From Apostichopus japonicus (taxonomy: Eukaryota > Echinodermata > Holothuroidea > Aspidochirotida > Stichopodidae): a stretch of DNA of 64,000 nt. Below are positions 24,241-56,768 of the stretch, piece by piece. The notes beneath the pieces are model-generated. The model did not search any database. It was given only the letters and a program-made list of their open reading frames with translations, and was not told the origin of the DNA. A program made the translations under genes and the position numbers. Numbering within the stretch: position 1 is the stretch's first letter; every line of letters starts with the position of its first letter. The stretch covers positions 10,020,484 to 10,084,483 of the forward strand of contig NC_092564.1 in assembly GCF_037975245.1 (NCBI RefSeq), written 5' to 3'.

Positions 24241-24290
24241 AAGAGAGGTAAGGAATACATGACAGCAACTGGCAGTTAAATGTCATTACA

Positions 24291-25900: not shown

Positions 25901-28900
25901 TTACCTGAAGGGTACTTTCAACTGCATGATCAGGACTAAAAATGACAGCCATCTTGATACTGCTTCTGATCGTTCATCCAAATCCGGCCCTTTATTTCTT
26001 CAAAGTCCACTGCCTCTGGAAAACGTAACCTGTAAGAAACATTGAACACTGGCTCAACCTCAAAATCTTTGAAAAATTTCACACCGTTTTTTTCTTTCTT
26101 TTACTATTTCCTCCATCTTAAGTTAAACTAAATCAGTCCTAACAATCAGACTATTTCCACACAGCATTTTCTATACATTCTAAATTATCAACCATCTCAT
26201 ACTTCAAAAGACTAAACATGATTACAAAACCTTTTGCAAAGGTTCTTGAAGGCTTATATATGGAACTTGTTTTCAGAGTATAGGCCAACTTATAACATAT
26301 TTTAGGTCAGTAGCACATCCGAATGCACTTAGTTGCCTTACTTGAAACTATGAAAGGTTTTTCTCTATCAATTCAAAGGGATAGCATCGCAAGATGTAAA
26401 CATTCTGGAACTTCTGGTATACAAAGAAAGAAGATGCGCATGAGCAAGTTGGAGAGTATAAAATATACTTAAAATGCCAAGACATGTCTCTCTTCTTGCT
26501 CTTAAAAAACAGTTTTGTGAATTTAATTCCATATTCCTCGAACAAAACAACGATTTCCCTTTGTTTCTTGATTCATATATTTATCTTCGCTGACTTGCAC
26601 TTCACAATTATATTTCCATTCAAGAAACTATTACAGACGAGACGATACATAATTTACCATCGGCTGGAGTGGCAAAACTTTTCTGAAGAAATTCTGTCTC
26701 TCCGTCGTACCACGAGTAAATAACCTAAACCAATGCAAATCTTCCCCCATGGTTTCTTGTAAAAAGCAGTTCTAGTTAAATTTAAGTTGTTTTAAAGTCA
26801 ATTTTGTTCTTTTCAGCATTTTCCTGGCTTTTCTATTTATTTGGTTTTCTTCACCATTCCTATAGCCCCTGCCAAAATCCATAATATCACAGACCATTTG
26901 TTTGTAAATGGTTGGTCTTTTTTAGGATTCTTGAAGGAGAGTGCATTTAGTCAGGCTGTACCGATTCCACTAAGCAACCCTAGCAATGTACCATCTCTGA
27001 GTGAAAAAGTATTCAGGTCACTATTCACATCCCAAAATTGTAACCCCAAATTATTTACTGAAAATGAACATTTTTTTCAGCTGATCTTCAATTTATGGTC
27101 TTCAAAAATATAACCATTTAGTTGTATTAGATGGTTGATCTAAATATCAGCCTCTTTAGTAGTAATAATTGCAAACACCTTGCAAACATTTGCACACTTC
27201 AAATCCCAGATTCAACTGTGGACAGTTTATAAGACTTTGTAGCAGATCTACAAGACAACCAATAAAAAACATTGTTTAAGCTATATACCCAAGGGGAAAA
27301 AAAAAATCAATTCTTGCTTAACAAATACCCCTTTTTTTTGGCTGTTTACTCAAATTGGTTGAAATCTTTCTCTTCTGATCCCAATAGAGATGTAATTTAT
27401 AGAAACAGAGATATGCCGACTCCAGAGACAATTACATAATTATTAGGATGTTTCCACTGTTTTTGTTAACATTTTGAAGCGACGAAGAACAAATTCTGAA
27501 CAATAAGCAAAGAAGTAATGAAAAGAAAAATACTAATCCTTCTTCAGTCATTCAAGCAAATCCATGATCTGGTCCTCTTCCAAAATCACAATTGACAATG
27601 GCATCACTTAAATCATCGGAGCAGAGATGCCTGCCTGAAGTGCCGCTCCCTATCATATTAATCAATATTAAGGATCAAGTTATTCTTAGCAGAAGATACA
27701 GGACACCTCTGGGACCCGACCTAGTTTTTCAGAGACTCGATCCTAGCTCTAACTATGTGTTGAACAAGCTTATCAAATTTCTCCCCTAAATTTTAAAGTC
27801 ATTGAAGTTAACCACATTTTCTGGGGCCTTTTTTTGCCCTTATAAATATATATTACAGTAAGATTAAATTTTGACAGCAATGGAAGAATAGGATTGGAAA
27901 TATAAATTACTCCCTTTTCACAGTTATTAATCAGAACTTTACTACAAGCATCCTAATATATCTGGAATTGTCTGACTTCATTCAGAGATGGGTAAAATCA
28001 TGGCCTCGATATTTTCGTTGGCCATGGATGAGCAGGTCTAGATAAACATCACAAGATGTCGAACACAGCCAACCATTTCCCTAGCTATTTACCCATCTTT
28101 GGCAAGTTTCTCTTGTTCCTACATACTTTAATTTATGTGTTAATTTCTAACATAGTTTTTATCCAAGTCTAAAACGAATATCCACCTTTGGACAGAGGGT
28201 ATGGGCACCAGCTCTAGACGAGATATTTCCACGTTTTTTTTTGGCAAATTGATGTCACATAGCATCCTAAGTGACACAAAATTTTAACTTACAAACATGA
28301 ACAGCTGCATACCGATAATTCTGTCCTATTTCTTTACTTTGGTTCAATTCCACTTTTGGTTTTCTTTCACTGTTAGTCCTATTAGCCATAAGCGTATACT
28401 CAGAATGAGGGGCTCGCATAAATATTTTGTTTGGAGTAGCAATTCCAAAACAAAATAATAAACAGAATTTGTAAACAAAGTAGCAATTCTCAGATCCAAA
28501 TAACAAAGTTTGCAAGATTCCCAATCATCAAGAATTTTAATGGACTCATGGTAAATTTCATTCAAACAACAAACAGTGATACAATTTAACAAAGGCAACT
28601 TTTAGTTTGTAAAAAATGCATTATCCACTTAAGAAAAAAGAAAGAAAAAGAAGATAGATAGATACTTCCTTATGATAAGAATATGCCTCTAATCTACAAA
28701 CTATATTCACTATCAAACAGACCGACAGAAAGAAAAAAGGAAACCTATTGGGTGTGTGGAATGTGGTCTATCAACCTATGGGAAGGGCAAAGAGGGGGGT
28801 ACCCTTAAGAATGGCCGATTTGAGAGACGATCTCAAGAAATGAATATTCATGAGCTGGTTGATCAAGTTAAAATATCAAATGCAACTTTAAGAAGCATCA

Positions 28901-29750
28901 TCTTAGCAAATAAATTATAGGAAAGAACAATTTGCTAACATTCATTTTCTGCAAGTACTTATGTACAAATAAGAAATTATTCACGAAAAAAATACAAAAA
29001 AACACATAGATAAAATACACAGCTACAGGGTTTCATCTGTCTTATCAGTATTTCCACGTTTTATCACTTAGTTAGTTACAGGCCATTAAAACTTATCAGA
29101 GAGTGAAATATGGGCACCTTAACTTGGTCGATCCCCTAAATGGACCAAGGAGAGTCCAGTGGGACATGGAAGAGACAATCAGGGGACACCTATCTGTTAA
29201 CAATTCTGATAAAAATTTGTTCTCACATTACAAAATATCAAATCTTAACTGCACACTACTTGGTGTCAAAAGGCCCTAAATTTTACAGTCAACACTAATC
29301 CCTGCTGGTAAACTTTCATTAGATCACAAAGATCTTTTGCTTATAACAAGCTAACATCTCACAGTCAATTGCTTTAAATCAATGAAGGAAAAATTGTCCC
29401 ATGTGACTGTTCACAAAGTCCTTAACATGCAAAATATATCATTATATCCTTTAACACATCTTTTTTTCCAGTAGCAAGAAAACAGAAACATGATTGGGTC
29501 ATAGGTCACTCCAGTTTTCAGTTTAAAAATTAAAAATATACTGGTTTTTGGAGAAACAGTCGATGTGCTTGGAAGAAGAGGAAGAAATATGACCTTTGAC
29601 CAATCAAATGCGGTATCTCCTTGTCTAACCAAACATGAACTCCACAAGTAATATAATCTCTCTTGGCTGGTAGTCAAATTCCTTCTCTTGATGGTTCAAC
29701 TTGTGTAGTGTTCATGGCATTATTTTGAGAGAGAGAAAAAACCTGAGTGC
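25901..29750. other. Downstream region of hnRNP copy 1; no coding sequence seen
   Basis: AT-rich, with only short frames lacking domains. It may hold the rest of the 3'UTR exon of the hnRNP gene and its poly(A) site (minus-strand AATAAA at about 26836 and 25992), but the end cannot be placed from sequence. Confidence 0.35.
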
Positions 29751-29817
29751 ACCTTTGTGCACAGAATTGAGTTGGGACAATCCTTCACTGCTATATACAC
29801 AACCTCCTAGCAACAAT
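29750..29817 (-). other. Start of 3'UTR exon of hnRNP copy 1
   Basis: In the gene's sense the acceptor tttgtttgccacag is followed by ATTGTTGC, then AGGTTGTGTATATAG and CAGTGAAGGATT. About 45 bp after the acceptor, and some branch-point-side sequence (aactgat), are shared with 48670-48737 in the paralogue. With the donor at 31816 this defines a 1,999-bp 3'UTR intron. The 3' end of the exon is not placed. Confidence 0.7.
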
Positions 29818-31820
29818 CTGTGGCAAACAAAGGGACGAAACATATCAGTTCATTAGAGTAGCTCGAATATGAAGGCATTCAATTGGTTAACAGTGATCAC
29901 ATGATTCACCCAACTGACTTGTTCCTAAGGCAACAGACTCCCGACTGTTGCCATGTCTGAAAATTCCAGCAAGCTTCATCTTTGAGCTTAAGGGTTTTTA
30001 TTCAATGCCCTTCTCTCATCTAGTACCTTTATCGCATATCAAACAATTTTCAAGGTAAATTTCTGCCAATTTCAAAGAGCTTCATAGCACATATCCAACA
30101 AGCTGCTACAACTATCAGCAGACTAGCAGTTCGCAACAAAAGTTTTTTATATTGTAAAAAAAAAAACACCGAAATCAATTTAGCCCAAAACAATTCAATT
30201 TGAATGCAGGGGATAAACTCTTGTTATGTCCCCTGCACTTCCATTTCCAGACTTTAAGGAAAGATGTTACAAACATCAATTTTTCCAAGGAGTCCTGATC
30301 TTTTCATTGCAGCCATCCTTGGGCAGCTCTCAGGAAATACTGCAACTAATAAGCTGACAAATCCAATAACCTGGCACCACCTTTAGAGATCCATGATGAT
30401 ATTTTTCAGACAATCAGAAGTGGGAATCATATAATGACTTCTTTGCAACCCTACACCAGGAACGATACTTGATGTAGAGTTGCAAGGCAATCGCAACATA
30501 TCAAAACTAACAGAGAAGTCATAACGCAACTAAAATATCACATCAGACAAAAATACAGTGAAATTGACCTAGCAAAACAAGATTAACATCCCAGCTAACC
30601 ATGTTCAGATGATTCTGTATTTTGAGTTTGACTGACACAGCTTTTTGTTCAGTTGACACTAACTTATTGTTTTTGTAATTCTGCTCATCTTCATCTCTGT
30701 GAATTGCTAACAGAGATCCCATATTCCTGCAAGGCTCAACATTGTGTCTGGACACACCCCCCCTTCCCCCCAACCCTAATTTACACCTTACTGAGTCATT
30801 ACTTAGCGAAACCACCGACTTCAACTTCACTATCACCATTGTCGGACAGGAATGTTGTTGTGATAATCATACTACCCTGGAGAATGAAATCTGAAAGGTT
30901 TCAACAAATTTGACTAAATCCATTTCAAAGCTGATTTGAATGTCCCTTCAACTACACTGAAGAAGCAGTGTTACTTCTTGATGGTTTTACAGAGTGTTGG
31001 CTTCCAATTCCTTTAGGTTTTATGATTCCTTATCTAGTGTAATATCATTCAATAATTATATTTCGCTTTCAGCACCAGTGGAATACACTGATCTCGTAGC
31101 ATTTTACTATAAACCCTATCCAAACTTGCCACAGAAATTATTTTGGGTGCAAAAGACGAGTTAATCTGCACCGTGTACTCCAAATCAACTTATGCTAGAT
31201 TGGATGAAAAGCAGTTTAAAAATAATTCAAACCTACCATTGTTTCTTTCCACTACAAACCCTGCATGCGTTTACCCACCTTATCACTGTTAAACCCACTG
31301 TGAAGGAATTATGAACCTTTTTTTCTGTCCAACAGAAAACTTTACATGAAGTCAAAAACTCTGGTGCAAGAATTCCCCACCAGTATCTCTAACTAAGTTT
31401 CGAGAAGTTTCCACATAAACACTGTGATCAAATGTCTGATATATGACCAGTATCTGTAAGTTCACAGAAATTGTCTTCAAAACCTTCTTTTTCTGGTGGG
31501 GAGGTGTGGGAAGGGGGGGGGGACATTTTTTCAGAGAAACTTTAAACAAAGGTTTCATTTTATTGTCAAATGTCACATGGCCTAAGAAGCATCTTAGAAA
31601 CCATTAAATTTAGACTGACAACTTGTATCAGATAAGAATTAATGTTTAACTTGGTTCCAACAATCTGTGACCACCACTTTTTTAACTATTTCAATAGTCA
31701 GAAAAGTTACGGAAAAGCCATAACTGACCTAATGGGAAAGTTGTGATGTTGGTGTTCTTATGTTGGACACCTGATCTGAGGAGTCAATGTCAGACCTAAC
31801 AAGGACCTACACTTACCTCT

Positions 31821-31900
31821 CTAATACCTCCGGTTTCCTCCTCCTCTTCCTCCGGAACGGCCAAAGCCGCCACCACCACCTCCACCACTTCCGTAAGAAC
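31821..31900 (-). CDS. hnRNP copy 1 exon 11: C-terminus and stop
   Basis: Acceptor ttctgacag, phase 1. Codes for SYGSGGGGGGGFGRSGGRGG, then GNRRY and TAG at 31821-31823. A consensus donor (AGAG|GTAAGT) follows the stop after four bases, so transcription and splicing continue into a 3'UTR exon at 29817. Confidence 0.88.
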
Positions 31901-34900
31901 CTGTCAGAATAATCAAACAAAGAGATCTTAATGTATTTAACCAAATCACATGGATACCAGGAGCTACCACATTAAATGATATATACATCGGGTAACTGTC
32001 TAGGGCAGGGTTTCACTTACTTCATGCCCCCACGAACCCCCTGTGGATGTCAGTTGTCCACGAACCCCCAACTTTTCTAGACAAGATCTGAGTCATTATT
32101 ATATTATAATACGCATAACAGTGTTCGTAAAATATCAAGTTCAGCTCTTTATCTACATGACATACTGTCATGCGTACACCAACTTCACCAAAGTCATGCG
32201 GCCTGTGTCTGTTTCATAATTCAGTTATTTATCACATGCACGGTACCGTACAGCTATGGCAACATATGCGTATGGAACGCGAAAAGAGTTTGTCGATAGG
32301 TACCACTTTTGTAAGTACTAAATTATATGATATATCAGATTTTAGTTCAACAAAAAGTGCTCTAGTTTTGACTTTCAGAATTGTCTCACAAACTCCCTGG
32401 GATGGACTCATGCACCCCCTGGGGGTTCATGCACCCCAGTTAGGGAACCCCTAGGGTAAACAATGTCATAAGCTTGTAACTTTTCCAACACATAGGAAGT
32501 CAATCACGAAACAGTTAGATTAAGCTGTCATCATGGTATAAAGAGTACGTGAAACTGATACAAGAATTACTAAAAAGGTAAACAAAGGAGAAGATAAAAA
32601 AGAAAGAACTAGAAACTGCTAGGAAATTCCTCATGTTTTTTTAAAAGTCAGATGGCATGATGATTTGGACATCTCCAAGATCGAACTCGAGGGTAAAATG
32701 GTTAATAACTTGTCTTTTATATATATTATCACTAACAAACCTTCCTCACCTCCATATGGTCCAGAGCTGCCTCCACCCCCACTTCCTCCGTAGCTACTTC
32801 TACCACCTCTCATGGGACCAAAGCTGGACCCTTGATTACCGTAATCATCATTGTAACCACCTTGGAAAAGTGAATATTAAGGGAAATAATGAACACATAT
32901 TGAAACTAGAGAAAGGTTACGAAAACAGACCAAAAACAAGAGTTTCTATATTACTAGCCATGACTGCAAAGCTAGGGGGGTTCCGTGCAGAGGAAGATTT
33001 GTGGTATTCAGTAACTGAAGAAAAGTCATGCATTGTATAGGTCCTACCGATTCAAACATGTATCTTATCTCAAAGTGGCTTTGATTGGAAGGTTTAAACA
33101 ATTTTGGTCAAAACAAAGTTTTTTTTTTTGCATTGAAGCCAGAGTTTTGAAGAATTCAGTCAAATATATCCCTAAAATTCGCTCCAGGTAAGAACTATAC
33201 ACTTTTTGCAAATATCCATACTCATAATCTGTTGCTCCTATCCGCACTGGATCAACATCATTAGCTATTACGATATATAATTCATATGGGTGACTCACAC
33301 AATTACCGTATGAAAAGCCATAGACAGCTATTTCTTATACAGTACAGTTTGGTAAAAGTATGTAGCTCATTACTTGATTATTGAGTGTTTTTCAGAGAAC
33401 AACACCTCATAAATCCACATTATCAATTGCAACACACATTGCCATGTGTAGGCTACCTACCAATAACACATGTTTGATGAAACTGAGTTATGATTGTCTA
33501 GTTATTGCATTTTGAACATTCTGACGTTTGACCCTGTTACCTCATTAATAATCATTATATGAGAACCAAAATCAATAGGGTTTAGGGAACCACCCACCCA
33601 TCAAGTATGTTATTGATCAATCATTCCCTTGTCTAGATATTGTGCATACAAACTTCTGTTACTAAAATAAGGATCAGCTCCGCTTCCTCATAAATATGCA
33701 TGATATCAACTGCAAGACACTAGCATGTATAGGTGGTCTACCAAAATCACCATACCAAGTTTGAAGAAACTCCAACTTGGGTTTGCAAAGTTATTACAAT
33801 TTGAAGATTTTGACGTTTGACCTTGTGAGCTTATTAATATTCATGATATACAAACATCTGTTGTAAAAATTGTCGATCAGCTCCGCCTCCTCCTAAATAT
33901 GCATGATATTAACTGCAAGACAAATCAGCATGTTTAGGCCGTCTACCTATATCACCATACCAAGTTTGAAGAAACTTAAACTTGTGGTTGCAAAGTTATT
34001 GCAATTTGAAGATTTATATTCATGATATGAGCACCAAAATCAATAGGGTTCATCAACTCATTATGAACCACCCATACTACCCAGTATAGCATTGATCAAT
34101 CATTCCCTTGTTGAGTTATCATGCATACAAACTCAAAGTGTCACACACACACACACACACACATGCCAACCTGACAACAAAGGTTCCTTTGCTTGCAGCA
34201 AGGAACCAAAAACCCATCAAGATACATAAAGGGCATTGAAATTCCCAGAACAATCACCAACACCTTTTCAAAGAAGAGGCTAACATTTCATAGAACTCTA
34301 AGATACAAATTGATGAGCAAACATTGTAATAGTAAACAGACAAGATTGATGACAATGGAAAAGGACAAGACTACAAAGCACAAATGACGAATACGTTGTA
34401 AAGTGCCTGTGACAAAATGTTTCTATGTGGCATGTGCAAATGAAATGGTCCACTCGTTTTCTAGATATAGGGGTGCATGTTTAGAACTTGTACCTACAGG
34501 CTCTCATCACACATACACACACATGTATGTAGCTTCATAACTCCACTGCTGCAATGCTCATGGTGGTGTAAAAATAGTAGAGGAAACTAAGTTTTCTTCA
34601 ATAAATGTACACAAAGAATAGAAGGAAACTTGGAAACAGCTAGCAGTATTGCCCCCAAAACGGTGAAATACTGACAAACCACTTACCCCCTTTTTTGTGG
34701 CAACAGTATGTTACTGTTTTTTGGGACAGTACACAACTGTCTTTGTGAATATCTAACATTAAAAAAAGAGGACATTTTAACTTTGTAACTAAGCAATGAA
34801 CTTTAGAACACCAGATTTGGGGCCAATACAACATCTGTTCTATGATGAGGCAAACAATATAACATTTTCAAGGATTTACCAGAATTATATCCCCCACCGT

Positions 34901-37900
34901 AGCTATCATTGCCGTACCCTGAAAACAGAAAAGAGAAAACCAACGGAACGTTTTCAACAGGGACAAAGCAAAACACCATGAGGCTGCATCAACAGGAAGG
35001 ACCAGAGTCCTTAAAAGATTTGAAACCCCAAAATAGGAGGCAAGAGAACACTTTCCAATCAACAATTGGTGTGTTCTACACATCAACTGATAACTTTCAT
35101 CTGTTGTATATCAACCGACTGAATCATCAAAAGAAACAGGAGCAGTCAAGAACAATAGACATTTACAAAACTTTAAAATATCCAGTTGCATGTGCAACTC
35201 CTAATGACAAGCAGTGCAAGAATGCAAAATATTTAGCTGAAAAGGAAAACAAAACAGACAATTACATGCATTATTTTTAAAGTAATACTAGCAAGTATGT
35301 AAAAGGTCCCAACATGTATGATCAATATGTAAATTTTCATTATTTGAAATAACTGAACCAAAAAATGAAAAGGAGAAAAACAGGGGCAAGGAAGGAGTCT
35401 CTGTAAAATATTGTAGTATCCAGTAACATAGACAACTGAAGAAATTGTAATCCATTCATAAACTTTTATATCATCTATCCATATCAGCATTAACTTCCTT
35501 CATTGTAAATTGATGTTAGGACACAAGCTGTAAATCAATACACAAGATTTTGCTCTAATCGTATCACAACCAATTTCAAAGCATGTCAGCAATTTTGTTT
35601 GTTAACATATGTAGAGGTCAAAGTGTTTATTTTACACTACTTACCTCCCCCTCCTCCTCCGTTGTTGTAGCTGTTGTAACTCCTATTGTATGAGCCACCA
35701 TATCCACCACCACCTAACAAACCAATGTTAATTAAACACAAGTATAAACTTTCAACTCACTAGCTTCATATAAGATCAAAGAAAAATGAAAAACAATATC
35801 ACTATTAAGAAGAGCAGTAGAGCCTCATTCTGATATTGACAAGCAGCAAATTTTGACTGTTCGGTGAGCTGATGTATTTTGTGTGTGTGTATGTATGTGT
35901 CTGATGTATTTTGTGTGTGTGGGTAAGGGAGTGGAGAGAAAGCAACAGGTATTGATACCTCACCATACCTGAAGAGCACTGACGTTCTGTTGCAGCAAAT
36001 GTTGGTTGTTGGTACTGCGTTACAAGATGTTGCCCTCTTGTAAAAATTGCTGGACAGATGCTTATATGTATTACAGAAATTTAGCCCAAAAAAATTCTAG
36101 CTAAATTCTGAAACTCACTAAATTAAACTTCACAATTTCAACCACCACTATAATGTCACATTCCACCAATCACCAACTCTCACCAGTCACCAAGTCACTT
36201 TTTTCCAGAAATGTCTTAACAGTCACCAATGACAAGTTTTCAGACAGTCCTTGCTAATGGCCTGCATATGTGGCTAATCCATGATTCTTTAAGTAACATG
36301 TGTTACTAAACTGTCAAATGCTAAAACAGACTACGAAATCACAGTTACCTTGTCCACCGCTACGGCCACCTTTCCTGTCACCTGTTGGAGAAGGAAAAAA
36401 CATCAAATATAACAAGGCAATAATCCTTGAAAATTTGCCCTGCAAGAGACACTGACAAGATGAAAGGTACCATGTTCAAGCTAGCAGTATTTCTGACCCA
36501 CTTGTAACACCCTTCTTAATCATCCAAGTCTTTTTGTCGACCTGACAATGGATGACCAGCAGAGATGGGGGGATGTAAGGAGAGACAGAGACATGGGGGG
36601 AGGCAAAAAAGAGTGAATTTCCTACATTTCAGCCAGAAAACCATGACAGGCTGCCACTAGCTTTCATCAAGGGTTTATAAGCAATGCTAATCAATCTATT
36701 ACTTACCACCATAGCCACCGCCATTTCTGTATCCACCACCTCCGCCACCACCGCCTCCGTAACTACCTGTAGAAGCAAATGACAAAAGCTTTATAACATC
36801 ATCGCCACTACTACTAGGCACCGATGTTTCTCCAGTTCTAAAAATAAAACACCAATCTATCCCTTGAAACATGTGGCCAAGTCCTAAACCAGACAACCCA
36901 TAAGTGATCCATTGCCTACGGCCAGTGATAAGTTATGTGTCTCGTGGTTGAAAGCCCTATTTTTCTGCATTTAATCTTATTGTTCTAACTGTGTCTTCTT
37001 TTCAAAATATTGCGCCATCAGGGATCAGTGAGGTCATATATACAAGGGACTGCTAATGAGGTCAGGAATAAAGGGGTTCGTCTTTCTCGAGTGTGCGCTG
37101 CGTTTCTCACACACTTTAGGAACTGACCATATTCATAAGCTACATAAGCTTTTTGTATAGTTCCAATGTCAGGGTAATCTAGACGATAAGATGTTTTGAG
37201 ACTTACAGTATCATATGTCTCTAGTCATCTAGCCAAGGGTGATATATATGACTCTTGTTTTGAAACGGGGTTGGGGTGGATAATGTGTACAGTTCATGAT
37301 TGTTACTCACCAAAAGATCTGAAACCGCCACCACCGCCTCTTCCTTCTCTTCCACCAGGCCCACCAAAACCTGATAAGGGGAACAACATCTCTTCAACAG
37401 TTTTTTTCTAAACCTCCTATTTGAAGTCGTTCTGTTACTTCAAGCCAAAAGATGGTAACTCAAGACAATTCATTGTGCAAGAGAACTAGATATCAAATGT
37501 AGCAATGCTCAAACAGAGTTTAAATTTTGCCTCTGCACAGGCAGAATTTTGAAAGTTTTTCAACAGACATTGCCATTAACTTAAACGTCGAGTAATGCCC
37601 TTATGACAGCTAGTCAGTGTTGCCCAACACAGAGATCCTACCTTTCATTTTTCTCTACCCAGTGTAACAGTTTCAACTATTGCCACTAAATGCAACTAAA
37701 TGAACAATGTCTTAGACAACTTACAAGGTCAAGAAGTTCTGACTTACTAAAGGGAAATAATTGACAGACTTACCTCCTCTCCTGGGCTTTTGTGTAGCTT
37801 TCTTAACCTCGACATCTGTACCATAGACGTTGTGATCTTGATTTTCTAGATTGAAAACCAAAATGTCGACATATTAACCACAACCAATGGATTGATGATG

Positions 37901-39718
37901 AATGGATGAGGGTATTTAATACTGGCACACAAATTCACTTTCCACATAGATGATCACAACTAGCCAACAAAATGTGACTTACCAAGTATCTTGCTAGTAA
38001 TGCTCGCGTCTTCAAACAGGACGAACACGAAACCTCTGTTCTGAGTCTCATCTTCTGCAGACATTGGCATAATCACCTCCTCGACAGAACCAAACTGACT
38101 GAAATACTCGTGCAGTTGATCCTTGGAGAGTCCACCAATTTTCCCAACATACAACTTCTTGACAGGAGCTTCGTCCTAATGAGAATAAGATGGAAAGATG
38201 TCATTGTTGCAACTGCTTTAAGTCAAATGCCACAAAAAAAAACAATGAAACTAGGGATATTTGACGGGTGCTTGCGTAGTTTATGGAACAAATCAAATGC
38301 TTCTTAATTTCTTTCAAGTGCTGAAACTTTCTTAACTATATTCAATACACGAGGGCCTATTTCCTATAGACTTACATTTGTGTTCATTCAAGGGTGTCAG
38401 GGATACTGGAGAACAACATGAATGGTAATCTGCTATATACTACCATTAGTTTTATTAACTAAATCCAAACATCAGTTACAAGGTAACAGCACAATTTTGC
38501 AAAAGAACTTTCATCATACTTCTTGACTGTGTTGTCCCCTATGAATTGTAAGCACATTTTGAAGAAAAAAACATTTTAACAAATTTCTTACTGCAGTTCT
38601 ATGACATCACACCGGTTTCCTTCAAGTTCACTTTTGGCAAAGTACATGTTAACTTTAAATGCATCACCAGGACACTTAGAATAGGTTTCTCTTTCATGTG
38701 AGAAATTAAAATTTTCCTCTTGACTATGCTTTAACAGTCATCCAGGACCCTGAAAGTAATAATTTTGAACTGTCTCAATTACCTCTCTTGGCAAGGCTTT
38801 CTTAACATCTACAACACGTCCAAGCATATTGATTTCCCCTGCTTGAAGAACAGCATTGGCCTGCTCTGCTGTTGCAAAGGTGACAAAACCGAATCCTCTG
38901 GATGCGCCCCAGTCCTTTGTAATGATAACTTTGTCGACTATTGTTCCAAATGTTGAAAATGTGTTTTCAATGTCATCTTCTGTTGCTTCGACTGTAAGCC
39001 CACCAAGGAATAATTTCCTATCTTTCTCTGGAGCGGTATTCTGCAAAATAAAACATGTAATTTCTCTTTCATCTTCAGATTAATCAAAAACTAAAGTCTT
39101 AAAGAGCCTATCAAGTATCAGTATAGTTTACGGTAGCCAATTGACTGAACAGCTATTGAAATGCTCAATTTCAACCGAGGCAAGCACATTGATAACTTTT
39201 CTTAGCACACAGATGCTGAAATAGGTACAAATTTGAAGAAAGAAAAATTAAAAAAGAGAAAACTAAAAGATTTCTTATGTTAAATTGTGATTGGAATTTT
39301 AGGAGCAGCTATCATTATCAAGACATTTGTGTGTTCTTTTTTTGCAAATGTTTTAAGCCTATATTTCTTCAAGAATCACTGGGATATCTACTTCGATGAT
39401 GAACGCTAATTAGGCTAGATTGAGGTCCTCTTATATTGTTAATAACTAATGTTTGTAAGCTTGACAAAAATTCGCAAACCAACCATACGTACAGACGGGC
39501 TTGTCACGATAGGTTACATAGCCTAGCCCACGCCAGTAAATCTATGGCGTGGGCTAGGCAGGCTATGGCTACAATATCAAAACTGAAGGGCATTAAGGAA
39601 CTGAAACTTGATTCTTGCAAGAAAATCACAACGAAATATCAAAATTTAGCGCATTGTCCACCATTAAAAATAACATACATTACTTGATAATATTGTTTAA
39701 TCACATTACCTCTTCCAT
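31821..39718 (-). CDS. hnRNP A/B-type RNA-binding protein, copy 1 (11 coding exons)
   Basis: Join (minus strand): 39710-39718, 38783-39040, 37983-38175, 37774-37845, 37311-37370, 36707-36766, 36349-36381, 35645-35713, 34880-34918, 32750-32860, 31821-31900. The product is 327 residues, close to hnRNP A1/A2 size. RRM1 (about residues 12-88) has RNP2 KLFLGGL and RNP1 RGFGFVTF. RRM2 (about 97-172) has LYVGKI and RGFVFVLF. The rest is Gly/Tyr/Asn-rich with RGG-like sites, an M9/PY-NLS-like segment (SSFGPMRGG and SSGPYGG) and a terminal NRRY. The family binds pre-mRNA and mRNA in splicing, export and stability. MEE followed by the intron sets the start. All tail introns are phase 1. A second copy lies upstream at 49-59 kb in the same orientation. 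Confidence 0.92.
32006..32450. mobile_element. hAT-like MITE in hnRNP copy 1 last coding intron
   Basis: Imperfect inverted ends: cagggtttcacttac with acgaaccccc inside, against gggggttcatgcacccc and gttagggaaccc. These resemble hAT (Charlie-type) ends. Both flanks carry ctaggg, a possible remnant of the target duplication. No coding frame. Confidence 0.65.
32750..32860 (-). CDS. hnRNP copy 1 exon 10: M9/PY-NLS-like segment
   Basis: 111 bp, phase 1-1, acceptor acttttccaag, donor gtgagg. Codes for GGYNDDYGNQGSSFGPMRGG, then RSSYGG and SSGPYGG. The FGPM(K/R)GG core and the downstream GPY match the transportin-binding M9 signal of hnRNP A1/A2, so nuclear import by transportin is likely. The YND motif lies in the steric-zipper region of the vertebrate proteins. 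Confidence 0.88.
33470..34140. repeat. Dispersed repeat copies, about 200-bp spacing
   Basis: The segment gatcagctccgc(t/c)tcctc recurs at 33672 and 33875, ataccaagtttgaagaaact at 33756 and 33958, and ccaaaatcaatagggtt at 33567 and 34035. The text (accaagtttgaag, tgacgtttgacct) resembles a common interspersed repeat family of marine invertebrates. A (CA)n run follows at 34143-34163. Confidence 0.7.
34880..34918 (-). CDS. hnRNP copy 1 exon 9: Gly/Tyr-rich microexon
   Basis: 39 bp, phase 1-1, acceptor tctgttttcag, donor gtaaat. Codes for GYGNDSYGGGYNS. Confidence 0.8.
35645..35713 (-). CDS. hnRNP copy 1 exon 8: Gly/Asn/Tyr-rich
   Basis: 69 bp, phase 1-1, acceptor gtttgttag, donor gtaagt. Codes for GGGYGGSYNRSYNSYNNGGG, a prion-like composition. 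Confidence 0.85.
36349..36381 (-). CDS. hnRNP copy 1 exon 7: Gly-rich microexon
   Basis: 33 bp, phase 1-1, acceptor ttctccaacag, donor gtaact. Codes for GDRKGGRSGGQ. The smallest internal exon of the gene. Confidence 0.78.
36707..36766 (-). CDS. hnRNP copy 1 exon 6: Gly-rich
   Basis: 60 bp, phase 1-1, acceptor gcttctacag, donor gtaagt. Codes for SYGGGGGGGGGYRNGGGYGG, with Tyr spacing typical of prion-like hnRNP tails. Confidence 0.85.
37311..37370 (-). CDS. hnRNP copy 1 exon 5: Gly-rich
   Basis: 60 bp, phase 1-1, acceptor cccttatcag, donor gtgagt. Codes for GFGGPGGREGRGGGGGFRSF, an RGG-box-like segment. Confidence 0.85.
37774..37845 (-). CDS. hnRNP copy 1 exon 4: end of RRM2
   Basis: Acceptor ttttcaatctag, donor gtaagt, 72 bp, phase 1-1. 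It codes for the last strand of RRM2 (GTDVEVKKATQKP) and the first RGG-like site (PRRGG). Inside the intron-rich tail region it is also symmetric. Confidence 0.88.
37983..38175 (-). CDS. hnRNP copy 1 exon 3: RRM2, first part
   Basis: Acceptor attctcattag, donor gtaagt, phase 0 to 1. It codes for KKLYVGKIGGLSKDQL and NRGFVFVLFEDASI. RNP1 has Val where Gly or Ala is usual. Confidence 0.9.
38783..39040 (-). CDS. hnRNP copy 1 exon 2: RRM1
   Basis: Acceptor ttattttgcag, donor gtaatt, 258 bp, phase 0-0. It codes for RKLFLGGLTVEATEDDI and SRGFGFVTFATAEQ and ends KKALPRE, the counterpart of the KRAVSRE end of RRM1 in vertebrate hnRNP A1. The loop before RNP1 is short (KDWGASRGF). Confidence 0.92.
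39517..39567. repeat. Intronic stem-loop, 14-bp perfect stem
   Basis: Arms cctagcccacgcca (39522-39535) and tggcgtgggctagg (39545-39558) pair perfectly over a 9-base loop; catag/ctatg extend the stem past a bulge. It lies in intron 1 of hnRNP copy 1. Confidence 0.8.
39710..39718 (-). CDS. hnRNP copy 1 exon 1 (start codon)
   Basis: Only nine coding bases, ATG GAA GAG, then donor gtaatg. It joins in phase 0 to the RRM1 exon. The short first coding exon is inferred from the frame and the donor. Confidence 0.75.
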
Positions 39719-39955: not shown

Positions 39956-40001
39956 AAGAATTTTGATGCGCCACTCGCATAGATAGTAATTTTATTATCA
40001 A

Positions 40002-48669: not shown

Positions 48670-48737
48670 TGGTATTGTGTGGGGTAGTAGTACAAATCCT
48701 TCACTGTTGACTATTTACACAACCTCTATGCAAAAAT
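48670..48737 (-). other. Start of 3'UTR exon of hnRNP copy 2
   Basis: In sense, a strong acceptor with a T-run (tttttttttatcacag) is followed by ATTTTTGC, AGGTTGTGTAAATAG and CAGTGAAGGATT. This matches the 3'UTR exon start of copy 1 at 29817. With the donor at 49342 it gives a 605-bp 3'UTR intron. Confidence 0.72.
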
Positions 48738-48819
48738 CTGTGATAAAAAAAAAATCAATGACATGGGTCAGTTTGATGAGAGCACCATAATAATAGTAAT
48801 CAGCAGCAATTTTTACGAC

Positions 48820-48975
48820 ACTTATAAATAATAAATAATCATAAAAATAGTACTTATATAGCGTGTTCATCAGCAACGCTGCTCAAAGCGCTTTACAGGA
48901 ATTGAAACAATTAATATACAGGAAACATTTAAAATACAAGAAACATTCAAAAGCAAATAGTAGAAAAATAAAATA
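48820..48975 (-). repeat. LINE 3'-tail fragment
   Basis: The minus strand reads tgtaaagcgctttgagcagc, then cgctatataagt and an AT-rich end. This is the same kind of tail as at about 22700-22755 after the better LINE copy. It lies in the 3'UTR intron of hnRNP copy 2. Confidence 0.65.
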
Positions 48976-49346
48976 AATGGAAATGATAGTGTTCTATAGT
49001 ACTTGTCAATTGCAGTATTAGTTCACTGAACCCTTAGTGTGGTTCCTTGTACTGCCTCTATTAGATTGAAGTTGATTGTGCTATTTACAGATCGTTCACT
49101 AAAGCATCAGTTAAATGAATAATGCCAAGTGCATTGGTTTCTCACGGAATGAAAGAGTCTCCATCATTATCATCGTGTCTCCTCCAATCAGCACTTATTA
49201 ATGCAACCTACATGCTTGGCAGTCTCTCTGATCAGGCGAATTCCCTACAACTTTTTAAAAGTCAAATCTTTCCTTGCCTCAGATGTGTAAATTGAAGGTT
49301 AATATCTACAGTTATCTTATGAGAAATAAAAGGTGAAATTACCCAT

Positions 49347-49420
49347 TTAGTATCTCCTGCCTCCTCCTCCTCCTCCACCCCCTCCTCCATAACGATTGTA
49401 GTTGTTACTTCCAAAAGAGG
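49347..49420 (-). CDS. hnRNP copy 2 exon 10: C-terminus and stop
   Basis: Acceptor tcctttgtag, phase 1. Codes for ASFGSNNYNRYGGGG and a Gly run ending GRRY, TAA at 49347-49349. A donor (ATGG|GTAATT) lies four bases after the stop, as in copy 1. Confidence 0.86.
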
Positions 49421-52400
49421 CTACAAAGGAAAGGGTAACATGGTACGGTTACAAAGGGAAAGCTAACAAAGACAAGCTTAGATGAGTCTAGATTTGTTTA
49501 CTATTTTCATCCAAATTTCTAATAATAAGGCAAAGAGTAACATGTACTTTCAGACTGATCAATTTGCAGGCCTGAAAAATGTACTAAGCAATCAATGCAG
49601 AATCATCAAGAAAAAAAAAGGTTTCAACATATCTTTGGGGTCTGGTGGTGCACATGCAGACTCGTTATCTAATTTGTTAGCCCCAAATGCTCCGAAATGC
49701 ACTTATTTTTGGGTCTGTTACACTAGCAGACTTGCCATTAAATGATAAGGCAGCCCAGACTCACATAAACTTAACATACAATTCCTTCAGTCTGGGAGAA
49801 TGCAGACTTGCATGTAAAAGGTCGATGCAAAGCATACGGCCAGCCCAAGTGGATGTCAGATTACGAAGAAAGTCTCAAAACTTTGGGCATGGGTCAATCT
49901 AACATTACAATACTTTGCTGGTGTCCACAGCCATGACTGCATTGATGGCTCTCTGATGATGATGATGATTTCAATGAAGGATCACCAGAATTCAAGTACG
50001 TCTATTTCTCACCAAAACGGACGAGAGACTTCACGCTGGTAGGGATGCCACATGGCATATATGTCACCCATCGATATTTGCTCTTCTCGAGCTATCCTGC
50101 TTACAAGAATACACAGTGCTTGTCTGTCTCTCTCTCTGTTGACCTGTAATGACCTTGGATTTCCCACCAAAACCAACAAAACTGTTGTGCTCACAGGGAT
50201 AATGCATGGTATCTATGTCACCTCCCTACAATATGAAGATGTTCTCTACAGACAAATGTACCTCATTTCATGCACCCTCTCATAGCATGAAAGTTCCCGA
50301 AGAAGTTGTAAAGATCATTCACCTTTTGCATGATAGTTGATGTTACAATGTTAATGGGGGGAAATAACGAGACATTAATTTAACTTAGTAAGTCATCGGT
50401 AAATTAATTGTCAGCTCATCCACCAGTTTGGAAACTAATCTTCACTTACACAGCAATCTTTCAGGGCAGATTTTGTTCTCATTTTCTTCATATAATACTA
50501 CATTCAACAAACAGCTGGTTAGTTGAGAGAATAGTGTTAATCAAATTGCTTGCAATGTCCTACAAAATTGACTTTGGAGTCATTTTTCAATGCATTGAAA
50601 AGTGACACAAATGATCATTACACAAAAAAAAGAACAGGAATAAATCTAGCTTAACTTGTATCATGGAGGATGTTTGCTGTTCATAACATCTTACCTCCAT
50701 AGGGACCACCTCCACCCACTCCTGAGCTCCTTTTACCACCTCTCACAGGTCCAAAGCTAGACCTTTGACTAGCATAACCATCATTGTACCCTCCTAATGG
50801 GTAGAAAGAAAAACATCTCTTTAGAGTCTCATCTGGAGAATTCTTAACAGACAAGTTCCAAAGTAAAAAATGCCAACTTTAGACATATTTTTGAGAGCCA
50901 CCAAGACTTAGTACACCTTGACTATCCGAGATACTGAGTACACCCTGACTATCAGTTTTTAGTAAAAACACAATTTGCGGGGCTAACATTCTAACATATT
51001 CAAGACAAACAGCGTAAGAGATTATAACTTATGAATAATTCATATGCAATTACCAGATGCAGCATATCCACCACCGAAGCCATCGCCCCTGTATCCTCCT
51101 CCTCCTGCTCCGCTATTACTACTAAACCCTCTGTTGTAGCCAGCTGTCAAAGCAAGAGGCGGGAAAAACATAGAACATGATGAGAAAAGCACTTTTAAAC
51201 AGATGTCAAGTTTACACATGAATAGTCTCACAGATATACTCTGTGTATGTTGCAGCTGTATCTGAACTTTGGGAAAGGTATTTTTGGGGGAGAAGGGCCA
51301 TTTAACCAACCCACAGGTGTAATGAATGGCTGTCCACATTTTGTTGTTGTAAGTTATGACTAGTTTACAGCTTTCAAAGTCATTATGAACAAAGAGACTG
51401 GGGGTGAATTAGTTTGCATGGTTTACTTCCTTATAGTAGGGAACTCCTGAGAGTGTTGTGAGAGTATGAAGTGAGAGTATATGGTTTGCTGCACATGTAT
51501 CAACATATGTCAGTACACAAACCTTTACTGTGTTATTTGTGTAGAGGACATTTTAGGCACTGTAAGGCCAAACCGAACATTTTAACTCCTGAGGGGCTGA
51601 AGTGGTCATATTAGGTCCTGAAGGGCTGGAGTGGACATTTTAGGTCCTGAAAGATCAAACTGAACATTTTATCTCCTGAGGGGCTGAAGTGGACATGTTA
51701 GGTCCGAAAAGGTTGGAATGGCCATTTCATGTACTGGAGGTCTGATGTGGACATCTTAGATCCTCAGTGGCTAAAATTGGACATTAGACCTTTTAGGATT
51801 GTCCCAAAAGGGAAAAAAGAAAACACAAATGGAAGCCAACCTCTACACGTGGATACAACATTTCAAAGCCATGATAGAATGGACAAAGAATCCTGACCCA
51901 AATGGAGTAAGCTTACCTTGGCCCCCATTGTAACTGTCATCATAACCACCTTGTCTTCCAAACCCATCATTATACCCTCCACCTCCTGTGAATAGTTGAA
52001 GAAAGTAAAGAAACTTAAATGAGATTGACCTGTTCAGGTCTAAAAAAAAGAAAGTGTCCACTGCCCCCCCCCCTCTCCCTCCCTCACCTAACCTATATTT
52101 TACTTCTTTTCTTTTTACTCTTTAACATTCATGTCAGCTAGAAAATATGTTCATGAACTTGACGTCATAAATATTTCTAAAACTAAATGAGAATAATATG
52201 AATCATAAAACTAACCAGAAGGATAATAGGCTTCTGGACTCCTTGCGATATTTTATATGAGAAGATTTAATGTCAACCGGATGCAAAACAATAGCGTCAT
52301 TGAAGTCAATAGTGTGGACCTATGTACCAAGTGTGTACCTTATACATGCTTAAAAGGTTTGAAGTTATTGTGTTTACAAAGATTGCAGACTATTTACTTT

Positions 52401-55400
52401 TGAAGGCAACAAATGACCTTTCACCTCCACAGAAATAAATAGAGCAGGATTCTTGTTCTCAAAAACATTACCAAAGTTTAAAACATATCAAACTTTCAAT
52501 GCCAGTCATTAGTTCAAAAAGCCGATTGAATCAAGGATTCCTCTCAATACATGGTACTCACTGAATACTACTGTCAAAAGCTAACTTTGTCAATCTATAT
52601 ATCTCCCAGTCTTCATTTATATATTTTGATATTTTAATTGGAAGCAGTATAATCTCTCTTTACACCACTAAAGCAATATATTGCCCATGTTTTTTCTTAA
52701 CAATATATCGCAGGTCTGTCAAATTTTTTCCCCAAAATTTTACTAAAAATCTCATGTTAATGTTTGACCATAATATCAACTTACCACCAAAATTGTCTCT
52801 TTGATTTCTGCCACCACCACCATACCTGTCTTCTATAAAAATTAAGAAATATATGTAATAAATAAACAACCCAGAAAGCCAAGTTGGCAATGTCATTCCT
52901 TGCAATACAATTTGCTCAAAATTCCAAATAACATCTAACAAATTTAGAACAAGCGAGTTAAATTTGTCCAAGAATTAAGCAAAAAAAAGATCACAGATTT
53001 CCAGCTCTCCCATTTGTAGCGATAAACCATTTCATTCACTGGTAAGGATTTTATAGAATCTTATCCTCAAATGTTTCAATATCCAGAACGAACAGTCTTC
53101 CTATTTCAAATATAGACACAAATATGTATGAATAAAAGGACATTTTCTTTTAAAAAAAAACACAAGTTTAAAATTTGTGTAGCAGCTGTTTTCTGTGTAA
53201 GGGATGGAACTGCAATACATCTATCTTTGCACTTGTATAGCAAATAACCTATTTCGCATAGCATTTTCAGTCCCCATAGAAAGAAATTGGAAAATATAAT
53301 ACTAGCCAGTGATAAACATATATCCTGCTTAAGTTTTTTATGCAAAATTTGAAAAGTGGCAACTTTTATATTTTTCATAGAAATGGTACAGCTCATTCTG
53401 TTATTGCTTAGTCTTCCTTGTGACCATTACTGGGGGGATGTTTTTTATAGCCAACATACCTGCAAATCCACGGTTACCACCCCCTCCATAGGGAAGGCAT
53501 CCCCCTCCGAATGCACCGGCTCCTCCAAAGCCACCACCTCCGCCGTAACCACGAGGAACAAAACCTGTAGGTCCACCAAAGCCACCGTCAAACCCACCTA
53601 AACAAACAAAAAAGTTACAAGAACATCAGCACATTTTCTACTTCAAACAGTCCACAACATACCGCATTGCAGTATTAATCAACATAGGAAGATTAGCATG
53701 TTTTGTGTAATTAACAAGCCCCCCACCCTACCCCCCCTCCCCCAAGGGGAAATTTGCAAGTAGTCTCTTTTCTTTCACAACACATTACAGTACTCACATA
53801 GTTCAATTAGATTCATATTTCACATATTGAGGCTATAAACAAAGTCTGTAGTTACGTCTACCCTCAATGCTAGTAACCACTTTATTTAATTTTTTTGTGT
53901 GATGAAATGTTTGAGAATTGGAGGAGACCCCCCCCCCCACCACCCCCATCCAGAGATATAAGCATCACTCTGAAATCACTGAACAGTGCCAGGAATAGAG
54001 AGAATATTTGTTTCTGAGATTCTCAATTTTTTCTTTTTCCCTTCTCCCACTTGACATCACCAGGAAGATTATTGTCAAAGAAATGCTGTAAAATTACTTG
54101 GGAAAAGCTGTCTTTTGTTTGATTGCTCTGTCTACGTCACTACCAGTTATTTTCCCTCTAAGTGCTTAGCAATTCAATCGACACTTTACCTCTCATTCTG
54201 TCACCCATACCACCTCCACGATCTCTTCCACCTTTTGTTTGGGGAGTTGCTTTTTTTACTTCAAGTGATACCCCACCTATAGTATGGGTCTTCATTGCTG
54301 AAAGAAAGTAAGAATAACATACAGACTTAGTGTATTAGTAGATCCACAACTGACCACAGATGTGCTAAGGCCAAGCGGCAGCAGCAGCACAAACAGCATC
54401 TTAAACATTTTGGCCTGGCACTATTTTTGATGATTAATTTAACAAATTTTAAATTACCAAAATATGGGTGAATACTACAAGTTTGGCAAAGAAGTTAGCT
54501 CAGAATAGGAAAATAGATAGCACCATTTGTCATCTTAGCATACTTCATTTGCAAAACTTTTCCATCTCATCCCTTGGACCCCTTCCTCAGGACGTAAATC
54601 ACACTACTACACAAATCTGCCCAGCACTCAAATATTCCTGAGCATATCCCTGGTGACTGCATGCTTTTGTCATGTCAAGACGTTAGAATAATGCAGTTGT
54701 TTCCAAAGAATAAAGCAGGCCTTCAGCAAAGCCCCCCCCCCACCCCCCACCAAAAAAAGAAAAGAAATTTTGTAGTATTTGCAAAACTAGAATACTTGAC
54801 CTTACGTTCCATTTACCTGAAAGGAACTTTTCTATCAAGGAAGAGAATTTGTCGCTGATTTTTATGTAGGAATCCCTAGATGTTCAAAATCTTTTGACAA
54901 ATAAATATCTTGTGCTGGAAAAAGGGTAGGGGCAGAGGATCTAGTGGCATGACAATATGTCAAACAAGTTTATTACCTTGTAATGTACTCAAATGAGTTC
55001 AATTCCATACAAGTTCCATATATCAGTGAACTAAATGCATAATTAACAACAGGATCAATTGCTGTTATAAAATGCTACTTCTCTCAAGCTGTTTATACTA
55101 TATCTTTATCCCTCTGTTTTTTGTTCGTTATTTTTTGGGCGCTTCTTGTTAGAAGACAAGTAAGACAGCCTTACATTTCACCAACCAACTATTAAAATTA
55201 ACATACTCTCCTAATGATGCTTGCCCAAGTAGATTTCTGCCACAAACTGGTCTTCCTATTTCAGCCTTTTAGTCATTTTTCACTAGTCATACTGTACACC
55301 CCCAATCAAGCAAACAGCCACAGCCCAAAGAGCATACAAAAGTCATCAGACTCACCAACGAGAGTATCTACGATATCGTAATCTGTAAATTCAACAAATG

Positions 55401-56753
55401 CAAATCCACGTATTTTATTCCGATCGGCGCTCTGTTTGGGAATGATAACGTTTTTGACTTCTCCGTGTTGACTAAAGTATTCTTTTAGGTCTTCTTCTCT
55501 CAACGAGCCGATGCCGTAGATGTAAATTTTCATGGTCTCTTCGTTAACCGTTGGATCCTTCTCGGAATCCTGACCAGAAAAAGAATATTCACAGAAAGTT
55601 ATCAGGCTTCAATGTCTGAATGTCTGCCTCAAAAGCACAGTACTGTCTTTCTGACATTAATAAACCAATCACCAGTATCAATAAAAGTCTGCAATATGGT
55701 AATCCATCATATGATAGAGTAATGAGAAACACACAATGAATGCAAGCTTCAATATAAGCTCATGCAACCCACTTAAAAAAAAAGCCAAAACCTGTGTGAA
55801 ACCCTGAAGTCGCTAGTTCTAGCAAAAGAAGCATTGGGTCATTGTGTTTTAAATTTCTCGTCAAGTTTTTGGTGTTGATGGACTTACTGAAATATATATG
55901 TTAAACTATGATAATCCAAACTCTCGATTTGTAGAACCGGCTATTCCTACATTAACAAAAGAGTTATCTTCCCATAACACCTTCACAACATTAATAAATG
56001 TTCATTAATCTAGCGTTTGTGTGCCTAGCATTCTTGACAAGAACATCTAAAGTTGTCAGTGAGTTCTCATCTTGTTATCAGTATTAGGCTAGGATAAAAC
56101 TACTGACACTAGTGTTTCCTGTACTATAGTAAGAGAAATATACAGCGTAACAGCGATGATATATGGAATACTGAACATGCGTTCAGAGTCGTGAAAGTAT
56201 GCTGAAAATGTCAGAGGAAGTTACACTACGCCTGTTGTCATTTTCTATGTGGCAGTTGGACTTTTCTACGTCAAGTTTGTGAGACACTTGCAAACTTCTT
56301 AGAAGAGTAAGTACTTTAACATCTATGTATAGCTGCTGAATGAAAAGTATGAGCATTTCAAACACACAGACTTATGAAAGCCAACATAAAACAAACAGGG
56401 GAGTCACTGAATACTGGCTGAGTTCTGTGCAAGTACTGCAGTGATACTAACATGCATAAAAGACAAGTAGAGACTTGACTTACTTCTCTAGCCATTGCTC
56501 TTTTAATATCAATCTCCCTGCCATTCATCTTTATCTTTTCCCTTTTACGAGCATCCAGCACAGCCTGTGTTTCCTGTGCTGTTTGGAAGGTGACAAAACC
56601 AAATCCTCTAGAACGAGATGGAGTTGGGTCATCTCGTCTGGTTGGGTCTCTGATGACTACGCAATCCACAATTTTACCGTAATGTTGAAAGGCCTCCTTG
56701 ATATCATCTTCAGTCGTGGAAAAACTGAGGCCACCAAGAAATAACTTTCTCAT
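49347..56753 (-). CDS. hnRNP A/B-type RNA-binding protein, copy 2 (9 coding exons)
   Basis: Join (minus strand): 56484-56753, 55356-55569, 54190-54297, 53460-53597, 52785-52832, 51917-51985, 51054-51143, 50695-50793, 49347-49420. The product is 369 residues. RRM1 has KLFLGGL and RGFGFVTF with a longer loop than copy 1. RRM2 has IYIYGI and RGFAFVEF; its C-terminal part (HTIGGVSLEVKKATPQ) is like hnRNP A1. The Gly-rich tail holds an M9-like SSFGPVRGGK and GGGPYGG and ends GRRY. Start: with the 59110 noncoding exon spliced on, a TAA lies in frame upstream and the first ATG is 56751-56753 (context aggATGa). Another unseen first coding exon is possible. Same orientation as copy 1 and about 9.6 kb upstream of it, so a tandem duplication. 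Confidence 0.9.
49990..50290 (+). repeat. Interspersed repeat, two related copies
   Basis: Similar segments with gggatgccacatggcatata and gggataatgcatggtatct, each followed by tgtcacc, lie about 165 bp apart with tgaccttggatttcccacc between. Noncoding; likely the same marine-type repeat superfamily as at 33.5 kb. In an intron of hnRNP copy 2. Confidence 0.55.
50695..50793 (-). CDS. hnRNP copy 2 exon 9: M9/PY-NLS-like segment
   Basis: Acceptor ctacccattag, donor gtaaga, 99 bp, phase 1-1. Codes for GGYNDGYASQRSSFGPVRGG, KRSSGVGG and GGPYGG. Clear counterpart of copy 1 exon 10, but the Met of FGPM is Val and the RSSxGG spacing differs. Confidence 0.88.
51054..51143 (-). CDS. hnRNP copy 2 exon 8: Gly/Tyr-rich
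   Basis: Acceptor gctttgacag, donor gtaatt, 90 bp, phase 1-1. Codes for AGYNRGFSSNSGAGGGGYRG and DGFGGGYAAS. Confidence 0.85.
51560..51790. repeat. Degenerate 29-30 bp tandem repeat
   Basis: About seven units of ggacattttaggtcctga plus ggggctgaagt, diverging towards one end. Intronic in hnRNP copy 2. Confidence 0.85.
51917..51985 (-). CDS. hnRNP copy 2 exon 7: Gly/Tyr/Asp-rich
   Basis: Acceptor ctattcacag, donor gtaagc, 69 bp, phase 1-1. Codes for GGGYNDGFGRQGGYDDSYNG. The same length as copy 1 exon 8. Confidence 0.85.
52785..52832 (-). CDS. hnRNP copy 2 exon 6: Gly-rich microexon
   Basis: Acceptor atttttatag, donor gtaagt, 48 bp, phase 1-1. Codes for EDRYGGGGRNQRDNFG. Confidence 0.83.
53460..53597 (-). 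CDS. hnRNP copy 2 exon 5: Gly/Phe-rich
   Basis: Acceptor tttgtttag, donor gtatgt, 138 bp, phase 1-1. Codes for GGFDGGFGGPTGFVPRGYGG, GGFGGAGAFGGGCLPYGG and GNRGFA. The longest tail exon; it contains the only tail cysteine noticed. Confidence 0.86.
54190..54297 (-). CDS. hnRNP copy 2 exon 4: end of RRM2, RGG start
   Basis: Acceptor cttctttcag, donor gtaaag, 108 bp, phase 1-1. Codes for AMKTHTIGGVSLEVKKATPQ and then GGRDRGGGMGDRMRG. Confidence 0.88.
55356..55569 (-). CDS. hnRNP copy 2 exon 3: RRM2, first part
   Basis: Acceptor ttttctggtcag, donor gtgagt, phase 0 to 1, the same phases as copy 1 exon 3. Codes for MKIYIYGIGSLREEDL and IRGFAFVEFTDYDIVD. Confidence 0.9.
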
Positions 56754-56768
56754 CCTCTCTGAGTCAGA
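56484..56768 (-). CDS. hnRNP copy 2 exon 2: RRM1
   Basis: Acceptor ctatttgaag, donor gtaagt, 285 bp, phase 0-0. Codes for RKLFLGGLSFSTTEDDI and SRSRGFGFVTFQTAQ and ends DIKRAMARE. The loop before RNP1 (DPTRRDDPTPSRSRGF) is about eight residues longer than in copy 1. The probable start codon is at 56751-56753; 56754-56768 would be 5'UTR. Confidence 0.9.

Follow-up and report, generated by a model that had tools for sequence, protein, structure and literature searches.

Two hnRNP A/B-type genes on the minus strand of the window (the whole 64-kb stretch of DNA analysed here), gene A and gene B, share a short block at the acceptor of a predicted 3'UTR intron, and this block appears to have outlived all other detectable non-coding similarity between the two old paralogues. 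The block is a sharply defined candidate for the element by which hnRNP A/B proteins limit their own and each other's amounts. In human cells, such proteins keep themselves and one another in check in this way, in part via their 3' ends. The preferred reading, to which a probability of roughly 0.45 is attached, is that hnRNP A/B protein itself represses the removal of its 3'UTR intron through the block, so that each protein would hold down splicing of its own transcript and of the other's. Autoregulation of hnRNP A/B genes through 3'UTR introns is already known, and the pair of blocks described here would be a new instance of it. The coordinates of the genes, introns, block copies and a short motif within the block are collected in Table 1.

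Table 1. Positions in the window of the two genes, their predicted 3'UTR introns, the two block copies and the UGUAHAUA matches
Feature	Position	Strand	Details
Gene A, hnRNP A/B-type coding region	31817..39718	-	Hand model: 11 coding exons, 327 aa, stop TAG
Gene B, hnRNP A/B-type coding region	49343..56768	-	Hand model: 9 coding exons, 374 aa, stop TAA
Predicted 3'UTR intron, gene A, 1999 nt	29818..31816	-	Donor 14.2, acceptor 2.7
Predicted 3'UTR intron, gene B, 605 nt	48738..49342	-	Donor 5.6, acceptor 10.2
Conserved block, gene A: acceptor and first 39 nt of terminal exon	29779..29831	-	Local alignment, BLAST
Conserved block, gene B: acceptor and first 43 nt of terminal exon	48695..48751	-	Local alignment, BLAST
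UGUAUAUA, matches UGUAHAUA	29792..29799	-	Gene A block
UGUAAAUA, matches UGUAHAUA	48712..48719	-	Gene B block

The coding regions of both genes were modelled by hand, with the frame kept and GT..AG present at every modelled intron. In the model for gene A the short 9-base first coding exon (ATGGAAGAG) is assumed, and in the nine-exon model for gene B the exon carrying the start codon was not located. Each predicted protein has two RRM_1 stretches (Pfam RRM_1) and a Gly-rich tail ending in RRY. By eye, the Gly-rich C-terminal regions of the two models also contain the stretches SSFGPMRGG and SSFGPVRGG, which are presumably of the M9/PY type. Among solved structures, the RRM region of gene A is most similar to hnRNP A1 (113.8 bits), and a yeast RNA-binding protein (110.6 bits) and an hnRNP D-like protein (99.5 bits) also outrank A2/B1 (96.6 bits). 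The RRM region of gene B is again most similar to hnRNP A1 (143.9 bits), with A2/B1 at 136.6 bits. The sequence-only reading had described the pair as hnRNP paralogues, and the tandem RRM_1 domains and the best match to hnRNP A1 in both cases agree with that description; both genes encode hnRNP A/B-type RNA-binding proteins and are paralogues. Since both match solved hnRNP A1 chains better, neither appears to be an orthologue of A2/B1 in particular, as judged by bit scores and not by a tree. In alignments to hnRNP A1, the stretches that we take to be the RNP motifs of RRM1 are retained in both proteins, and the RNP2 Phe of RRM2 is replaced by Tyr in both. Because of this replacement, recognition by RRM2 may be less well preserved.

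The RRM regions of A and B have 46% protein identity, with third codon positions 26% identical and four-fold sites near saturation (10 of 33 comparable sites identical). In the Gly-rich part, 49% of the third positions are identical. Judged by these values, the two genes are old duplicates. The region just upstream of gene A, 40228-41421 (+), has a reverse transcriptase-like frame (RVT_1 at 25.7 bits, below the Pfam cut-off, plus DUF6451), and apparently constitutes the remains of a non-LTR retrotransposon.

The position, conservation and motif content of the block, like the identity of the genes, can be read directly from the DNA. Local alignment of 29831-29779 in gene A with 48751-48695 in gene B gives 45 identical columns out of 53 plus one 4-base gap, or 79% identity over 57 columns when the gap is counted (BLAST), the sequences being AUUGUUGCUAGGAGGUUGUGUAUAUAGCAGUGAAGGAUU in gene A and AUUUUUGCAUAGAGGUUGUGUAAAUAGUCAACAGUGAAGGAUU in gene B. 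The block begins in the pyrimidine-rich 3' end of the 3'UTR intron, where 11 of the 14 columns are identical, and continues into the terminal exon, where 34 of the 39 are identical; the alignment stops at the limits of the block on both sides. A shared block at acceptors 29817 and 48737 had been proposed from the letters alone, with a length of 45 bp, and the block is indeed present there, but its exon part measures 39 nt in gene A and 43 nt in gene B.

The two gene regions were compared over 27500-41500 (14.0 kb around A) and 45500-60500 (15.0 kb around B). With the modelled coding exons masked, the block is the sole non-coding match with E<0.05 between them (E 8e-7); the next-best non-coding match has an E of 0.27, and there are 12 matches with E up to 5. 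No other intron of genes A and B has a conserved non-coding flank at E<0.05. The block scores 31, whereas the highest-scoring of 200 first-order resamplings reaches 25. With gaps removed, it is slightly more alike (45/53) than the coding sequences of the two genes are in their best 48-column window (39/48). These results bear out the earlier impression that the surroundings have diverged and that the block looks selected. Selection on the block is the natural reading, since the genes are old duplicates whose non-coding likeness has otherwise been lost.

The likeness could instead be due to chance, to recent gene conversion or to a shared repeat, given that the comparison is of two sequences only and that tandem same-strand paralogues can exchange short tracts. 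Chance is opposed by the E value and by the shuffles, and a conversion tract or a repeat would hardly respect a splice acceptor and end within about 55 nt. A shared repeat was rejected, and no third copy of the 15-base core of the block is found in the 64-kb window beyond chance (six matches with up to three mismatches, two of them perfect, against 8.95 expected). Taken together, origins of this kind have only the slimmest of chances.

The block is also unlikely to be translated. One frame of gene A is open for 34 codons from the start of the exon, the same frame in gene B stops after 11, and the remaining frames of the block exons stop within 8 codons. A coding function was rejected because there is no common open frame and the 4-base gap breaks the register.

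The 3' end of gene A reads TAG AGAG|gtaagt, with the last exonic base at 31817 and the intron starting from 31816, and that of gene B reads TAA ATGG|gtaatt, with the last exonic base at 49343 and the intron starting from 49342. The predicted acceptors read CACAG|ATT, with first exonic bases at 29817 (A) and 48737 (B). The predicted junction is 4 nt past the stop in both genes, and the donors are thus where the sequence-only reading had put them, four bases after the stop, both in the letters themselves and in the hand models. Wherever a modelled intron separates two Gly-rich exons (31800-38200 and 49300-55600, minus strand), it is in phase 1, and so is the 3'UTR junction when the reading frame is extended. 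Because its phase matches, the 3'UTR intron perhaps once lay between two Gly-rich coding exons, and the terminal non-coding exon may formerly have been a Gly-rich coding exon, before the upstream stop arose.

Splice-site strength was scored with matrices from the 18 coding donors and 19 coding acceptors of genes A and B, a small set that makes the scores indicative only. Leave-one-out scores range from 5.9 to 13.9 for the coding donors and from -2.5 to 14.0 for the coding acceptors. The 3'UTR donor of gene A (14.2) is above all 18 coding donors, whereas that of gene B (5.6) is below all 18. The predicted acceptor of gene B (10.2) is the best of the 132 AGs in 47800-49344, whereas that of gene A is weak (2.7), and at least 8 of the 189 AGs in 28800-31818 score higher. 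The best-scoring acceptor-like sites in gene A are 29567 (10.2) and 30568 (10.0) on the minus strand, and splicing to 29567 would result in loss of the block from the gene A mRNA. The sequence-only reading had named intron retention or alternative acceptors as possible switches, and these sites are candidates for such acceptors; they also weigh against the acceptor predicted for gene A. Each 3'UTR intron has one strong end and one weak end, the acceptor being weak in A and the donor in B, as might be expected of an intron that is prone to retention. The word AATAAA is found within the 3'UTR intron of gene A, at 31564 and 30002 (minus strand), and is absent from that of gene B; a conserved APA site was rejected on this basis, and the difference between the genes also weighs against the preferred reading.

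One weak site per 3'UTR intron would also suit a constitutive exon-definition element, an enhancer to which SR proteins bind and which serves only to get an intron with a weak site spliced out, with no role in feedback. The 3' part of the block has a purine-rich stretch, GUGAAGGAUU, that presumably resembles a purine-rich exonic enhancer, and the purine-rich AGUGAAGGAUU is conserved. Such an enhancer would leave unexplained the UAG words kept in both copies, and also why the other introns of A and B have no conserved flank at E<0.05, and it is quite unlikely to be the explanation for the block.

UAG words are typical of hnRNP A/B sites, and each copy of the block has two. AGG words stand at matching places in the block, three in A and two in B. 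The first UAG is shifted by one base between the copies and falls inside three consecutive mismatches (of five exonic), yet it is present in both. The count of UAG and AGG words alone is weak evidence, because 181 of 9137 sampled minus-strand 41-mers (2%) have at least two of each. For human hnRNP A2/B1, the available text of PMC5789076 describes recognition of AGG by RRM1 and of UAG by RRM2, and reports that AGG mutations are more damaging to binding and that UAG mutations have only a moderate effect.

At exon position +19, both copies of the block also contain a match to UGUAHAUA; the sole internal difference between the two matches is at the degenerate position. This word, which we take to be of the Pumilio type, is rare, being found in 62 of the 9137 sampled minus-strand 41-mers (0.7%) and at 13 sites on the whole minus strand of the window. 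The block may accordingly be a Pumilio (PUF) response element (UGUAUAUA in A and UGUAAAUA in B) for cytoplasmic control of stability or translation, with the intron merely an ancestral neighbour. This is unlikely, since the 8-mer accounts for 8 of about 40 conserved bases, and the conserved CAGUGAAGGAUU and most of the UAG and AGG words fall outside it. In addition, a PUF site needs no adjoining splice acceptor, and the motif was picked after the sequence was seen.

No fold is shared between the copies: two 81-nt stretches do not outperform their shuffled versions in folding (z 1.11 and 0.40), and their folds disagree. A scan of the whole window with Rfam at the gathering threshold gave 0 matches. 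A structured RNA was rejected on these two grounds, and the absence of a shared fold is consistent with a linear site.

The preferred reading, repression of the 3'UTR intron by hnRNP A/B protein, treats the block as a linear cis-acting RNA element. An ancestral hnRNP A/B gene would have carried this element where its non-coding terminal exon begins, and selection would have kept it in both daughter genes. hnRNP A/B proteins on the UAG and AGG words just past the 3' splice site would hinder removal of the 3'UTR intron, and the purine-rich stretch nearby would counteract them, helping to define the terminal exon. At low levels of hnRNP A/B, the intron would be removed and the mRNA would be exported and translated, the spliced junction four bases after the stop not leading to NMD. 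At high levels, the intron would be retained and output would fall; in gene A, an intronic poly(A) signal may alternatively terminate the transcript. With the block present in both genes, either protein could in addition lower the output of the other. We infer the binding of hnRNP A/B proteins to the block, the direction of its effect and the fate of the retained form from the arrangement of the sequence.

NMD is generally triggered when a junction follows the stop at a distance of more than 50-55 nt. The junctions of genes A and B fall far short of this distance, which an HNRNPA2B1-type switch would require, in agreement with the earlier remark that they are too near the stop to cause decay alone. 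It is possible to imagine a classical HNRNPA2B1-type NMD switch here, in which the normal stop is taken for a premature one on account of another 3'UTR intron further downstream. HNRNPA2B1 itself provides the precedent (available text of PMC3091714), and gene B has GT sites downstream of the block at 48083 (score 8.8) and 47933 (6.8). This is highly improbable, however, since the stop+4 junction falls well short of 50-55 nt no matter which acceptor this donor is spliced to, and the block is the only conserved non-coding stretch at E<0.05.

According to the available text of PMC3091714 (McGlincy 2010), HNRNPA2B1 has a small UTR intron too near the stop for NMD (junction a) and a separate distal intron that triggers NMD. 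Overexpression of hnRNP A2 brings junction a down to about 60% and the NMD-sensitive junction b up by 20%. The small stop-proximal 3'UTR intron is the likeness to genes A and B, in which it is predicted, and HNRNPA2B1 is further described there as having a highly conserved 3'UTR and autoregulation. It differs in that its NMD switch is a separate, distal 3'UTR intron. The sequence-only reading had drawn a parallel to autoregulation of A2/B1 by 3'UTR splicing and NMD; control through a 3'UTR intron in HNRNPA2B1 is real in this source, but the parallel is a little off target, in that NMD is switched there by the distal intron. A study of hnRNP A1 (PMC3794575, available in part) also devotes a section to how expression of hnRNP A2/B1 is controlled, in which 3'UTR splicing is assayed.

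The nearest precedent is HNRNPA1 intron 10 and not the A2B1 NMD switch, because a junction at stop+4 should not trigger NMD. Overexpression of HNRNPA1 is said to inhibit splicing of its own intron 10, with neither NMD nor the 3'UTR being required (Suzuki and Matsuoka 2017, as cited in the available text of PMC8068773), and the same text places the stop codon of human HNRNPA1 and HNRNPA2 in the penultimate exon. The likeness to the system proposed for genes A and B consists of an hnRNP A/B gene with its stop in the penultimate exon, a late intron that is kept from being spliced by the gene's own protein, and no need for NMD. Unlike what is proposed here, the autoregulation of HNRNPA1 is said to be independent of the 3'UTR, and the two systems are compared by description only.

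The accessible part of PMC8068773 also reports that HNRNPA1 and HNRNPA2 cross-regulate each other through their 3'UTRs, with no effect on splicing and with inhibition by cycloheximide, and that overexpression of HNRNPA2 leaves HNRNPA1 intron 10 unchanged. Two hnRNP A/B paralogues linked via their 3'UTRs resemble the arrangement proposed for genes A and B, but in the human case the link leaves splicing unaffected and is inhibited by cycloheximide. These data count partly against the preferred reading of splicing repression. They suggest that hnRNP A/B proteins might act on the block in the mature 3'UTR, causing mRNA decay or less translation and leaving splicing unaffected, as in the mutual reduction of human HNRNPA1 and HNRNPA2 reported there. 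The UAG and AGG words would serve such binding as well as they serve splicing repression. The block would then have no reason to adjoin an acceptor, and this explanation is very unlikely.

TDP-43 offers a further example, being an RRM protein that regulates an intron in the 3'UTR of the transcript encoding it (available text of PMC3950720). It belongs to another protein family, however, and it activates the intron and alters the use of poly(A) sites. Among the literature matches listed, none has a 3'UTR intron of an invertebrate hnRNP A/B gene as its subject, by title.

The unit may be older than the split between invertebrate and vertebrate hnRNP A/B genes, in which case hnRNP A/B genes across bilaterians would have a terminal exon with this UAG-rich beginning behind their stop-proximal intron, although this is doubtful. 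The human HNRNPA2B1 and HNRNPA1 3'UTRs may have a UAG/AGG-rich stretch shortly past the stop, a lead that carries no weight in the readings given here. Among the papers listed for short human strings, none concerns HNRNPA1 or HNRNPA2B1 by title, and in one of them the string belongs to an siRNA against hnRNPC. If such deep conservation were true, the block would rank among the oldest known non-coding splicing elements, and the duplicated genes would be wired together by a shared element. The age of the feedback loop could be read from which other phyla have the block and which lack it. In two collections without animals, viral_contigs and genome_contigs, the block pattern has 0 matches, a result that does not bear on conservation among animals. 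Protein searches found RRM proteins at 13 viral-contig loci, and the best 80 of 434 prokaryotic records were taken with them; blastn of the block against these 93 non-animal loci gave nothing better than E 0.59.

The window has several other features. A reverse transcriptase-like frame at 23026-24282 (-), with an RVT_1 match of E 1.5e-23, is apparently what remains of a non-LTR retrotransposon. The region 445-18033 (+) has frames with calcium-binding EGF domains, with Pfam matches at 2446-2724 and 3859-4095. It also includes Cys-rich frames at 7774-8268 and 10253-10696 (+) and a frame with a hydrophobic stretch at 17563-18033 (+), all without a Pfam match. The frames in 445-18033 (+) perhaps constitute one multi-exon membrane protein gene. 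A tandem array at 13659-17235 has a 55-bp unit in about 65 copies with 92% matches, and a second minisatellite (34/101 bp) lies at 8359-9348.
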